Assembly: GCF_016793705.1 (NCBI RefSeq)
Contig: NZ_JAEULO010000035.1
Location: 1 to 64,000, forward strand
Length of the DNA stretch: 64,000 nucleotides
Origin: Tabrizicola sp.
Lineage (GTDB): Bacteria > Pseudomonadota > Alphaproteobacteria > Rhodobacterales > Rhodobacteraceae
Direction of reading: 5' to 3'
Position numbers and translations under genes: made by a program
Notes under the pieces: model-generated
Database searches by the model: none
Seen by the model: the letters and a program-made list of their open reading frames with translations, nothing else
Told to the model about the DNA's origin: nothing
In this document: positions 48,679-57,143 of the stretch, in pieces
Layout: every line of letters starts with the position of its first letter
How positions within the stretch are numbered: position 1 is the first letter of the stretch

Positions 48679-50055
48679 ATGAGCGTAGCGTTTCTGTTGA
48701 ACGGAACGCCGGTTCGCGTAGAGGGGGAAGCCCCGACGCGGACGCTGCTGGATTGGCTGCGCGACACGCGGGGCCTTCGCGGCACGAAAGAGGGATGCAA
48801 CGAGGGCGACTGCGGGGCCTGCACCGTGATGGTGACGGATGCCGAGGGGTCGCGCGCGCTGAACGCCTGCATCCTGTTCCTGCCCCAGCTGCACGGCAAG
48901 GCGGTGCGGACGGTCGAGGGAATCTCCGGGCCGAAGGGCGAGATGCATCCGGTGCAGGCGGCGATGGTGTCGCATCATGGCAGCCAGTGCGGGTTCTGCA
49001 CTCCCGGGTTTGTCGTCAGCATGGCGGTGGCGCATCTGAACGGCGATACCGGCCACGACGACGCGCTGGCGGGGAACCTGTGCCGCTGCACGGGGTATGC
49101 TCCGATCGTGCGGGCGGCGGAGGCGGCAGCGGGCGAGGCGGTGCCGGAGTGGATGGTGGCGGACCGGGCGGCGGTTGCCGGCTTCGCGGCGGGAGAGGCT
49201 GGGGTGTTCCGGCCTGCGGATTCCGATGCGCTGGCGGAGTGGTATCTGGCGCACCCGGATGCAGTGCTGGTGGCCGGGGCGACGGATGTGGGGCTTTGGG
49301 TGACGAAGCAGCTGCGCGAGCTGAAGCCGGTGGCGTTCCTGGGGGGCGTCGAGGACCTGAAGGGGATCGAGGTGCGGGGCGGGCAGCTGCATGTCGGGGC
49401 CTGCGTGACGATCTCCGCGCTGCGCGAGGCGGTGGCGGAGCGGTTGCCTTCGTTCGGCGAGATGCTGCGGCGCTATGCGTCGGTGCAGGTGCGGAATGCG
49501 GCAACGATCGGGGGGAATATCGCGAATGGCTCGCCGATTGGAGACGGGCCGCCGGCGCTGATCGCTTTGGGCGCGACGTTGCACCTGCGGCGGGGGGACG
49601 AGATGCGGTCGCTGCCGCTGGAGGCGTTCTTCCTGGACTATCGCAAGCAGGACCGTCGCCCTGGTGAGTTCGTGGCGGGGGTGTCCTTCCCGGAGCGGGC
49701 TCCGGCGTTCAGGTGCTACAAGATTTCCAAGCGGTTCGATCAGGACATTTCGGCGGTCTGCGGGTGTTTCAATGTGACGATCGAGGCGGGCGTGGTGACG
49801 TCCGCGCGGATCGCCTTTGGCGGCATGGCGGGGGTGCCGAAGCGGGCCTCGGCAGCCGAGGCGGCTTTGGTCGGGAAGGTGTGGACTGAAGCCACGGTCG
49901 AGGCGGCGGCGGAGGCGATGGCGGGGGATTTCGCGCCGATGACCGACATGCGGGCGAGTGCCGGGTATCGGATGCTGACGGCGCAGAATCTGCTCAGGCG
50001 GTATTTCCATGACCTGAACGGGGTGGGTGTCTCGGTGCTGGAGGTGTCGGCATGA
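48679..50055 (+). CDS. xdhA: Xanthine dehydrogenase small subunit XdhA
   Basis: 458 residues from the ATG at 48679; 24 codons upstream are open but not protein-like. The N-terminus has the plant-type 2Fe-2S site (Cys40, Cys45, Cys48, Cys64) and the second cluster (Cys104, Cys107, Cys135, Cys137 in CGFCTPGF and CRCTGY). From about 185 the FAD domain carries [16 protein letters not shown] and [17 protein letters not shown]. It passes electrons from the Mo site of XdhB to NAD. It overlaps xdhB by 4 bases. Confidence 0.95.
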
Positions 50056-52475
50056 GCATGGGGAAAGCCCTGCCGCACGATGCGGCGCCGCTGCATGTGA
50101 CGGGACAGGCGCGGTATATCGACGATCTGTCGATGGCGAATGCGCTGCATCTGGCCTTCGGGCTGTCGACCGTGGCGCATGGCGAGATCACGGGGATCGA
50201 CCTGTCGGCGGTGCGTTCGGCCCCCGGCGTGGTGGCGGTGCTGTCGGCGGAGGATCTGCCGGACATGCCGGATTGCTCGCCTTCGATGCATGACGAGCCT
50301 TTGCTGGCGGTGGGGACGGTGCATTACGTCGGGCAGCCGGTGTTTCTGGTGGTGGCCGAGAGCCATCTGGCGGCGCGGAAGGCGGCGCGGCTGGGGAAGG
50401 TTTCGTATCGGGAATTGCCCGCGCTGCTGACGGTGGACGCGGCATTGGCGGCGGACAGCCGGTTCGAGGGCGGGCCGGTGATCTGGCAGAAGGGTGACGC
50501 AAGCGCGGCGATTGCCGGGGCGCCCCGGCTGGTGGAAGGGTCGTTCGAGGTCGGTGGGCAGGAGCATTTCTATCTGGAAGGCCAGGTCGCCGCGGCAGTG
50601 CCGCAGGAGGGGGGCGACATGGTGGTCCATTCCTCGACCCAGCACCCGACGGAAGTACAGCACAAGGTGGCCCATGCGCTGCACCTGCCGATGAGTTCAG
50701 TCCGGGTGGAAGTGCGGCGGATGGGTGGGGGGTTCGGCGGCAAGGAATCGCAGGGGAACGCCTTGGCCATTGCCTGTGCGGTGGCGGCGCGGCTGACCGG
50801 GCGGCCCTGCCGGATGCGCTATGACCGGGATGACGACATGGTCATCACGGGGAAGCGGCATGACCTGCGGATTTTGTACCGCGCGGGGGTGGATGATGAG
50901 GGGCGGATTCTGGGGCTGGAGTTCACCCATCTGTTCCGCTGCGGCTGGTCGCAGGACCTGTCGCTGCCGGTGGCGGACCGGGCGATGCTCCATGCGGACA
51001 ACTGCTATCATCTGGCCCATGTCCGCATCGAGAGCCACCGGCTGAAGACCAACACCTGCAGCGCCACAGCCTATCGCGGCTTCGGGGGTCCTCAGGGGAT
51101 GGTGGGGGTCGAGCGGGTGCTGGACCATGTGGCATTCGCCGTGGGGCGGGAGCCGCTGGAGGTGCGCAAACTGAACTTCTATCGCGAGATGGATGCCCCC
51201 GGGGGCCAGCCCCCGGACCCCCGGGATATTTCTGGACAGAAAATGTCGAAGGGCGCGAAGGAGGGAGAGGTGGACCTTTCTTCTCGGGGCGCGGCATTGC
51301 CGGTGGGGTCGCACGATTTGCCGACGGATGGCGCGGTGCAGACGACTCCCTATCACATGCCGGTGGAGGATTTCATCGGGCACGAGCTGGTGGCGGAGCT
51401 GGAGCGGACGAGCGACTATCGGGCGCGGAAGGCGAAGATTGCCCGCTGGAACGCGGGGTCGCCGGTGTTGAAGCGGGGGATCGCGCTGACGCCGGTGAAG
51501 TTCGGGATCAGCTTCACGCTGACCTGGCTGAACCAGGCGGGGGCGCTGGTGCATGTCTATCAGGACGGCTCCATCGCGCTGAACCACGGCGGGACCGAGA
51601 TGGGACAGGGGCTGTTCCAGAAGGTCGCGCAGGTGACGGCTTCGGTCTTCGGGCTGGATGTGGGGATGGTGAAGATCACCGCGACGGATACCGGGAAGGT
51701 GCCGAATACCTCGGCGACGGCGGCGTCCTCGGGGTCGGACCTGAACGGGATGGCGGCGAAGGCGGCGGCGGAGACCATCCGCGGGCGGCTGGCGGAGTTT
51801 CTGGCCGAGAAGCATCAGGTGAAGCCCGAGGCGGTGAGGTTCGTCGACGGGGAGGTGAAGGTCGCTGGCGAAAGCTATGACTGGGAGCGCGTGGTGGCCT
51901 GGGCCTATCAGGCGCGGGTCAGCCTGTCCTCGACCGGCTACTACGCCACGCCGAAGATCGTCTGGGACCGGGTCAAGGGCACCGGGCGGCCGTTCTTCTA
52001 TTTCGCCTATGGCGCGGCGGTGACCGAGGTGGTGATCGACCGGCTGACCGGCGAGAACCGCATCCTGCGGGCGGATCTGCTGCATGACACGGGGACCTCG
52101 CTGAACCCGGCTTTGGACGTGGGTCAGGTGGAAGGGGCCTATGTGCAGGGCGCCGGGTGGCTGACGACCGAGGAGCTGGTCTGGGACGGGAAGGGGAGGC
52201 TGGCGACCCATGCGCCGTCGACCTACAAGATCCCGGCCTGTTCGGACCGGCCCCGGGATTTCCGGGTGGCGCTGTGGGGGAGGCCGAACCGCGAGGAGTC
52301 GGTCGGCAAGTCGAAGGCGGTGGGGGAGCCGCCGTTCATGCTGGGGATTTCGGCCTTGTATGCGCTGTCGGATGCGGTGGCGGCGTGCGGGGATGGCTCG
52401 GTCTATCCGGCGCTGGATGCCCCGGCGACGGCGGAGCGGGTGCTGATGGCGGTGCGGAGGGTCGAAGGTGTTTGA
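50052..52475 (+). CDS. xdhB: Xanthine dehydrogenase large (molybdopterin) subunit XdhB
   Basis: 807 residues with the molybdopterin motifs [19 protein letters not shown] and [11 protein letters not shown], oxidising hypoxanthine and xanthine to urate. A sign of insertion lies at 378-430: between LNFY (to 377) and [11 protein letters not shown] (from 431) there are 53 residues where I would expect roughly 10-13. The DNA there includes a palindromic intergenic repeat (51201-51245) supplying residues 384-398. The frame is not interrupted, so the enzyme may still fold, with a surface loop. It overlaps xdhC by 8 bases. Confidence 0.93.
51201..51245 (+). repeat. Palindromic repeat element inside xdhB (copy A)
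   Basis: GGGGGCCAGCCCCCGGACCC, then CCGGGATATTTCTGGACAG and AAAATG. It matches 55071-55118 in an intergenic space, differing at only a few places and with the same palindromic head and ATATTT...GACAGAAAATG tail. Here it is in frame and is translated as [15 protein letters not shown]. Confidence 0.85.
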
Positions 52476-54955: not shown

Positions 54956-54985
54956 GGTGTCTGGCCGGGTGCCCCCCTCCCCCAG

Positions 54986-55009
54986 CCCCTCCCCACGGAG
55001 GGGGAGGGG
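54986..55009. repeat. Hairpin repeat CCCCTCCCC/GGGGAGGGG (copy 2)
   Basis: A 9-bp stem with 6-base loop, close to 5799-5823 (same arms and flank GGGGA-GCGC). With copy B of the other element it fills most of the 174-base gap between ATPase and permease genes, and may lower expression downstream. Confidence 0.65.
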
Positions 55010-55070: not shown

Positions 55071-55118
55071 GGGGGGCCAGCCCCCCAGACCCCCCGGAAT
55101 ATTTGTAGACAGAAAATG
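55071..55118 (+). repeat. Palindromic repeat element (copy B, intergenic)
   Basis: GGGGGGCCAGCCCCCCAGAC, CCCCCGGAATATTTGTAGAC and AGAAAATG; the palindromic GGGGGG-CCAG-CCCCCC head is followed by an AT-rich tail just upstream of the permease start at 55130. It is the partner of the copy in xdhB. A related tail (GAGTATTTGAACCAGGAGG) occurs at 58311-58330, before the DAO gene. Confidence 0.85.
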
Positions 55119-56210: not shown

Positions 56211-57143
56211 ATGGACTTTGGCGGTATCAATCCGGTCATCCTGATCGCAACGCTAATGGCCTCGGCGGTGCCGATCCTGCTGGCGGCGCTGGGCGAGACG
56301 GTGGTGGAACGCTCGGGCGTCCTCAACCTCGGCGTCGAGGGGATGATGATCATCGGCGCGCTTGGCGGCTTCGTGGTGGCGGTGCAGACCGGCAGCCCGG
56401 TGCTGGGGTTCATCGGCGGGGCTGCCGCGGGGGCGGCCTTGAGCCTGATCTTCGCGCTTCTGACGCAGGTCTTCCTGGCAAACCAGGTGGCGACGGGGCT
56501 GGCACTGACGCTGTTCGGGCTGGGGGTCTCCTCTCTGGGCGGGCAGGGCTATAACGGGATCAAGCCGCCGCGGACGGGGCAACTGCTGCCCGACGCGCTG
56601 GCGGACCTGCCGGTCATCGGGCCGATCCTCTTCGGGCACGACTGGGTGGTCTATTTCAGCATCCTGATGACGGCGGTCTTGTGGTGGGTGCTGAAGGCGA
56701 CCCGGATCGGCCTGATCATCCGCGCGGTCGGCGAAAGCCACGAGGCGGCACATGCGCTTGGCTACAAGGTCAACCGTATCCGCCTGATGTGCATCGCCTT
56801 CGGCGGGGCGATGGCGGGAATGGGCGGGGCCTATGTCAGCCTTGCGCGCGTGCCGCAATGGGTGGACGGGATCACCGCGGGGGCGGGCTGGATCGCGCTG
56901 GCCATCGTGGTCTTCGCCAGCTGGAAGCCCTGGCGGGTGCTGATCGGCGCCTACCTTTTCGGCGGGATCACCGTGTTGCAGCTGAACCTGCAGGTCGCGG
57001 GCAGCGGCATTCCGGTGGAGTACTTGTCCATGGCCCCCTATCTGATAACCATTCTTGTGCTGGTCATCATGTCGGCGGGACGCAAGGGCAAGGCCAACGG
57101 GGCTCCGGCCTCGCTCGGCCAGAATTTCCACGCCTCGCGCTGA
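56211..57143 (+). CDS. BMP-type ABC transporter permease 2
   Basis: 310 residues, about eight helices, one base after the stop of permease 1. GETVVERSGVLNLGVEGMMI is the NupQ/BmpD-type permease motif, and VGESHEAAHALGYKVNRIRL the EAA-like loop facing the ATPase. It forms a heterodimer with permease 1. A GC hairpin follows before the binding protein gene. Confidence 0.92.
   Translation: MDFGGINPVILIATLMASAVPILLAALGETVVERSGVLNLGVEGMMIIGALGGFVVAVQTGSPVLGFIGGAAAGAALSLIFALLTQVFLANQVATGLALTLFGLGVSSLGGQGYNGIKPPRTGQLLPDALADLPVIGPILFGHDWVVYFSILMTAVLWWVLKATRIGLIIRAVGESHEAAHALGYKVNRIRLMCIAFGGAMAGMGGAYVSLARVPQWVDGITAGAGWIALAIVVFASWKPWRVLIGAYLFGGITVLQLNLQVAGSGIPVEYLSMAPYLITILVLVIMSAGRKGKANGAPASLGQNFHASR

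Follow-up and report, generated by a model that had tools for sequence, protein, structure and literature searches.

The window, a stretch of 64,000 nucleotides at the start of a contig of Tabrizicola sp. (NZ_JAEULO010000035.1), contains a gene for the molybdopterin-binding subunit of xanthine dehydrogenase, xdhB, with a short palindromic repeat inside its reading frame. A second copy of the repeat lies in an intergenic region of the same window and ends 11 bases before the GTG of a permease ORF (Table 1). A preliminary description, made from the letters of the DNA, had placed the two copies at 51201-51245 and 55071-55118, with a common GC palindrome and AT-rich tail, and had stated that the frame of xdhB is not broken; the coordinates are right, and residues 384-398 are read through in an intact protein. 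The TIGR02965 model (758 positions) covers residues 4-804 of XdhB, and the Pfam matches place the insert between the two molybdopterin-binding domains, in a linker of variable length. In translation, the element corresponds to residues 383-398. The earlier estimate that the region is about 40 residues too long fits a comparison with the shortest relatives, whose linkers measure 9-11 residues, but only some 16 of these residues are the element itself.

Table 1. Features of the xdhB locus, the intergenic copy in the window and the second coding host (window positions except in the last row; contig C6)
Feature	Position	Strand	Basis and remarks
xdhB, xanthine dehydrogenase molybdopterin-binding subunit	50052..52475	+	807 aa, frame intact; TIGR02965 1203.7 bits; MoCoBD_1 145-376, MoCoBD_2 450-734
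XdhB variable interdomain linker, residues 378-430	51183..51341	+	9 to about 75 residues in relatives
xdhB element head, class A: GGGGGCCAGCCCCC (51201-51214), then GGACCCCC	51196..51222	+	other head classes at the same place in congeners
xdhB element core GGGATATTT	51223..51231	+	pattern search
xdhB element tail, class T1: CTG, then GACAGAAAATG (51235-51245)	51232..51245	+	24 exact T1 matches in own genome, the xdhB one included
XdhB older linker stretch, 32 residues, probably outside the element	51246..51341	+	DLTTRGA without element in L162; DLTSRGA before element in L135, L136, L138
Second copy in the window, in the spacer between the ABC ATPase and permease ORFs: head A, core GGAATATTT, tail T1	55071..55118	+	pattern search
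AMP-binding protein with second in-gene copy	C6:89834-91165	element antisense, in frame	PF00501 72-277, PF13193 359-431

The closest solved structure, that of Rhodobacter capsulatus XdhB (1JRO_B), matches the protein up to the linker and again after it, with the alignment interrupted at the linker itself. The linker of the R. capsulatus protein, DPPERGGLSAPPSPPE, resembles that of a Gemmobacter relative, EGGLSAPPAPPEDIF (L118), in a comparison made at the protein level only. The peptide encoded by the insert probably forms a loop that the enzyme tolerates and that plays no part in catalysis. The in-frame element is also present at this site in the named isolates Rhodobacter calidifons M37P, Tabrizicola aquatica RCRI19 and T. 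soli (L088, L089, L091), which makes an artefact of assembly or frame unlikely. As single-stranded DNA, the xdhB copy (51195-51245) folds at -13.3 kcal/mol (z -2.54 against shuffles), and three other copies folded no better than shuffles: the intergenic copy of the window (z -1.14), the copy at L060 (z -0.59) and the long copy at L174 (z +0.59).

The two copies in the window belong to a repeat family that extends over the genome (3.84 Mb in 73 contigs). With up to 3 mismatches allowed, a 28-base pattern derived from both tails matched at 2 places in the window, as against 0 in 100 dinucleotide shuffles. Genome-wide, the tail GGGATAYTTnnnGACAGAAAATG gave 32 matches at up to 3 mismatches, 22 of them with 0, and its reversed control gave 0; a looser core pattern gave 71 matches against 0 in the control, and two further tails, CMAAGATGAA (13) and CCAGWATGAA (35), were found behind the same core. 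GC-rich heads taken alone are common in this genome, which would suit a likeness due to chance or to GC-rich low complexity, a reading that the preliminary description had itself named as fatal to its claim. This reading is refuted and can be given practically no weight, because the tail pattern recurs tens of times and the controls remain empty; the genome-wide likeness resides in the AT-rich tail. The genome search that the preliminary description had proposed yielded 102 distinct copies, collected from the fetched stretches and divided among tail classes T4 (37), T1 (32), T3 (15), T6 (12), T7 (5) and T2 (1). By a crude gene caller based on codon scores, whose printed list omits the permease ORF at 56211-57143, 100 of the 102 copies are intergenic and two lie in frame inside genes. 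The copies are thus nearly confined to spacers, mostly at the ends of genes: for 97 of the intergenic copies a gene was called on either side, and these comprise 74 between co-directional genes (41 sense and 33 antisense to the element), 20 between convergent genes and 3 between divergent genes, counts given here as such, with no random expectation attached. The C-head core pattern, the only form scanned across the class, has 63 matches in this genome and 1 match in one other of 142 genomes drawn from the class, compared with a control that matched once in each of two genomes; the sample includes one other genome of the same family, which had 0 matches.

The copies are modular and are built around a core, GGGATATTT, that is conserved. 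Ahead of the core lies a GC-rich head that can be exchanged, preceded in some copies by a hairpin module, and behind it lies a purine-rich tail that is specific to its class. Our own regular expressions, which also define the tail classes, separated seven kinds of head, and 18 of the 102 heads fall outside all seven. Some combinations predominate: the short C head is followed by a T3 or T4 tail in 33 of 38 copies, and heads A, B, E and F by a T1 tail in 23 of 34, while the long C head combines with T1, T6 and T7 tails. The additional upstream module of long copies has a hairpin between TCTCG and CTCGG. Of 35 such copies, 22 were chosen for comparable stems (other or shorter stems and near-duplicates were left out, and heads were not included); in these, 99.7% of the cells are paired, with 24 cells changed on both sides and 0 on one side only; controls with the hairpin slid along the sequence reached at most 63%. 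The number of further pair types was not above that of shuffles (87/500). The upstream module therefore keeps its stem-loop by compensatory change, a trait of REP and BIME repeats. Since one-sided (G-U) steps are lacking in these stems, the changes suggest arm-templated correction or block exchange at the level of DNA, rather than a slow co-variation of RNA.

Palindromic elements of Rickettsia (RPEs) occupy many different coding genes within one genome. The present family differs in this respect, as 100 of 102 copies are intergenic and only two are coding. The preliminary description had compared the xdhB insert with RPEs in concept, and in concept the comparison is supported: RPEs are palindromic repeats in frame within protein-coding genes (PMC3733652), as are the copies in xdhB and in the ORF of an AMP-binding protein, a likeness of arrangement. 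Exchangeable head and tail modules and concerted change, both seen here, are not described for RPEs in the part of PMC3733652 that was available. REP, BIME and REPIN repeats, as that part of the source presents them, are short palindromes at gene ends, single or paired, found mainly between co-directional or convergent genes, with some intragenic members and with different REPs at roughly one position of recB in two species of Xanthomonas (PMC3733652). The present family is similar to them in being mainly intergenic, at gene ends and rarely between divergent genes (3/97). It differs from the GTAG- and CGTC-tagged REPs associated with RAYTs in having a conserved AT-rich core and purine-rich tail outside the hairpin, and no Y1 transposase over the cut-off. 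In a search of 25 genomes of the genus, that of the window included, PF01797, the model of Y1 transposases (RAYT and relatives), exceeded its cut-off in 0, compared with 5 of 14 control genomes; sub-threshold hits occurred in G017 and G023. The family is not classed as a classical RAYT-driven REP because this transposase was looked for and not found. The four tags are present within 100 bases of the 102 copies in 28 (CGTC), 30 (GACG), 12 (GTAG) and 4 (CTAC) cases, which are counts of presence with positions unscored and no expectation. Enterobacterial repeat units (RUs, ERIC-like) are also small mobile repeats with open frames that become fused in frame to genes (PMC2759123), again a likeness of arrangement. 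However, RUs measure 103-168 bp and belong to other bacteria, and gene conversion is nowhere named in the accessible part of that source (PMC2759123). No account of a Rhodobacterales element was found among the matches listed from the open-licence literature, which is not proof of its absence in print. The present repeat is RPE-like and REP-like and works much as those families do, but it is not assigned to either.

Other candidate identities were set aside. The Rfam 15 covariance models gave no match at the elements in the searched part of the window or at six loci, and a tRNA-associated element was dismissed, with none at five loci. A scan for terminators returned one terminator-like site at 51212, inside xdhB, and none at 55071; with 1 found against 1.5 expected, this is no higher than chance, and the orientation of the element to genes is not fixed, so a strict terminator reading was not adopted.

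The second coding host is an AMP-binding protein, in which a long T6 copy lies just behind the PF00501 match. Its linker was compared in 30 loci, the present one included: 9 are filled (47-55 residues), 14 have 13 residues, one has 33 (L233) and one 22 (L236), while the pattern gave no reading at the remaining five (L231, L232, L234, L235 and L239). The filled copies differ in their tails, T6 in G000 and T3 in G007. Fourteen of at least 19 places matching only the insert peptide of the ligase were examined, and none had both flanks of at least 90 bases coding-positive in one frame; L260 is slightly coding-positive on both sides, with a left flank of just 36 bases. These 14 places probably represent intergenic copies, as judged from their coding scores. 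In G001, four of 43 copies examined (the xdhB copy not among them) were flagged as in-gene and were rejected, as they score better as antisense shadows.

The xdhB insert can be followed through many relatives. XdhB was searched in 61 genomes and in GTDB contigs; close relatives are over-represented, because the best 80 of 570 relatives were retained. The search gave 110 loci with 89 distinct linker-free proteins of adequate length. Of the 89, the patterns score 64 as having the element in this linker, subject to errors in both directions (L112 was scored as lacking the element though it reads DISGQMK, and L083 as carrying it on a head match alone). All 56 phased cores are in one reading frame. 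Linkers range from 9 to about 75 residues, with heads of class A, B, C, D, F, G, H or I and tails T1-T5. The extra residues are not a general property of orthologues, the outcome that the preliminary description had set against itself, as 25 of the 89 relatives lack the element by the patterns. Its view that the element had entered xdhB stands in so far as a repeat of the family does sit in the gene; the entry is neither private nor recent, since the same linker is occupied in many genera of Rhodobacteraceae. Its suggestion that residues 399-430 may derive from the element is probably incorrect. These residues do not resemble it and most likely belong to an older linker, because Falsirhodobacter (L162) has DLTTRGA without an element and Pseudotabrizicola (L135, L136, L138) has DLTSRGA before its element. 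In the xdhB linkers of L138 and L070, a second palindrome is apparently nested within the head, with the frame still open.

Within Tabrizicola, the element occupies one position and one frame in xdhB. Heads A-D and tails T1-T5 alternate there between preserved outer flanks of the linker; some ten residues directly behind the tail likewise differ among congeners. On a tree of linker-free XdhB, the fewest changes required are 32 for the head, 43 for the tail and 11 for presence; this tree is a quick one, in which 31 of 86 inner branches are starred and from which L078 (short) and identical proteins were left out. The 11 or more changes of presence would be expected if the linker were a preferred and tolerated target into which different members of the family had been inserted, and from which they had been lost, many times, with no need for exchange. 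The position of the element after the DLTSRGA stretch in Pseudotabrizicola and before it in Tabrizicola also suggests at least two separate insertions, and element-free relatives exist for both xdhB and the AMP-ligase. Nevertheless, recurrent insertion by itself is a rather unlikely account of the whole pattern: it does not readily explain why the outer flanks in Tabrizicola are kept around alternating heads A-D in one position and frame (the post-tail residues apart), nor why heads differ between genomes at one aligned intergenic place, and PF01797, the only transposase model searched, gave no Y1 transposase above its cut-off in the 25 congeneric genomes.

The tail of the xdhB copy mostly follows the other copies of its genome. 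Exact tail patterns were counted in 30 genomes, with all controls at 0, and the tail spectrum differs sharply between genomes: G001 has 44 T2 and 0 T1, G015 has 38 T1 and 0 T2, and G000 has 24 T1 and 1 T2. For 18 of 22 congeners, the xdhB copy has the tail class that is most frequent in its own genome (permutation p about 1e-5, with statistics that ignore kinship), and the mean genome share of its class is 0.66, compared with 0.25 when labels are permuted. Agreement is 10/10 for T1 against T2, 11/11 for T3 against T4 and 18/22 for group I against group II; the set of 22 excludes G014, which has fewer than 5 copies, and any genome with an xdhB tail other than T1-T4, and the T1/T2 comparison excludes G030, a tie. 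Four genomes depart from the rule: G030 has a T1-like xdhB tail in a T3 genome, another class is commoner in G000 and G008, and G012 ties. When corrected for phylogeny, the match reduces to 5, 1 and 2 independent pairs on supported branches (group, T1/T2 and T3/T4, respectively), none of them significant and with little power, and T1/T2 changed just once on the tree among the 10 genomes compared. Neighbour pairs picked by hand from the tree agree in 7 of 8 cases, a ninth having been skipped. Single variants show the same tendency, as 22 of 24 T4-type copies in G006, the xdhB copy included, read CCAGAATGAA, a form absent from all 49 in G010 and all 35 in G000.

Non-coding copies behave alike. 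Two intergenic loci, joined by BLAST into groups of 12 and 8 copies, were aligned across genomes; they were chosen from paired hits among the one-class matches listed and are not a random sample, and the tail class shared within each of the 20 paired copies is mostly so by construction, because the pairs were picked from one-class lists. At these loci tails differ between species, and at locus 1 heads also differ from genome to genome. With the pair's own copies left out, locus 1 carries the T1 or T2 form dominating the rest of the genome in 10 of 11 cases; the exception, G028, has T1 there and 0 T1 and 8 T2 elsewhere. Locus 2 similarly carries the dominating T3 or T4 form in 7 of 8 cases (8 of 8 if the pair is included), with G025 as the exception.

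A DNA- or RNA-binding factor acting in trans might produce such a correspondence if its preference had changed and selection had then altered all tails, that of xdhB included. The sharpness of the spectra, as between G001 and G000, and the location at gene ends, which suggests a function at transcript ends, accord with this possibility. However, several tail classes (T1, T3, T4, T6 and T7) coexist in G000, the xdhB copy mostly follows too, in a place where a transcript-end signal would do harm, and the heads differ as blocks, which drift of a binding site leaves unexplained. We therefore regard selection through such a factor as improbable.

Variable linkers would also arise if species swapped their xdhB linker alleles through homologous recombination and no exchange took place inside genomes. 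In G030, the genome with the misfitting tail, the end of the linker is 89.3% identical to that of G005, 84.0% to that of G015 and 74.7% to that of G000, a very weak indication, as G005 and G031 are also 89.3% identical there and identity near the linker exceeds that of the rest of the gene in most other pairs. Moreover, alleles from a foreign donor would not be predicted to fit the recipient's own intergenic copies, and intergenic loci show the same swaps. Allele transfer may explain the exception G030, albeit on very weak evidence, but there is only a slight chance that it accounts for the xdhB linkers in general.

The elements are probably best seen as an RPE-like and REP-like, non-autonomous family of mosaic palindromes of Rhodobacteraceae under concerted evolution, its coding copies included. 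Heads and tails are combined in many ways, and copies at the same place, coding and non-coding, differ in both between species. The preliminary description is thus confirmed in its observation and partly supported in its interpretation; the replacement of heads and tails, with tails that mostly fit the other copies of their genome, is additional to it. Under concerted evolution, copies would overwrite each other by a process resembling gene conversion or by copying into an occupied site, either of which would be a route of exchange. Tolerant interdomain linkers, such as those of XdhB and the AMP-binding ligase, would host a copy when its length and frame are compatible; once hosted, the protein segment would evolve along with the non-coding family, and exchanges that break the frame would be removed by selection. 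The stronger proposition, that an exchange process rewrites the copies within each genome, so that the sequence of the XdhB linker is set by the population of non-coding repeats and heads and tails are swapped in frame across a bacterial family, is in our judgement nearly as likely to hold as to fail, and repeated insertion at these sites, or a trans-acting factor with which the copies co-evolve, would leave a pattern similar to that of exchange.

In-frame palindromic repeats are already known from Rickettsia and from some REP families, and in the available part of PMC3733652 they are described as insertions, not as members of an exchanging set. What is new here is that coding copies appear to join the exchange of the family. 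One coding site can be traced in 89 distinct sequences, and many of the non-coding copies in each genome along with it, so the spread and homogenisation of repeats without an obvious transposase becomes directly testable. The pattern also suggests a route by which non-coding repeats supply protein sequence and keep replacing it.

Several observations concern the surroundings of individual copies. A different palindromic repeat, CCCCTCCCCACGGAGGGGGAGGGG, lies at 54974-55006 of the window, and similar stretches occur upstream of the elements in L166 and L171. T4 and T3 copies form direct tandem pairs, about 60-100 bases apart, at seven places in the same genome (L166, L171, L180, L182, L185, L192 and L218). 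At L034 and L050, also in this genome, the ATG at the end of the tail is the called start of the next gene. L040 (G000:C48 near 48610) and L046 (G000:C59 near 36564) are one locus present on two contigs of the same assembly with different heads, reflecting either a true duplication or a mixture of strains (assembly contamination 4.48%). The inverted element pairs at L040, L046 and L183 enclose a 26-base motif, GTACAGGCGGGGACGCCGATGACCGT.
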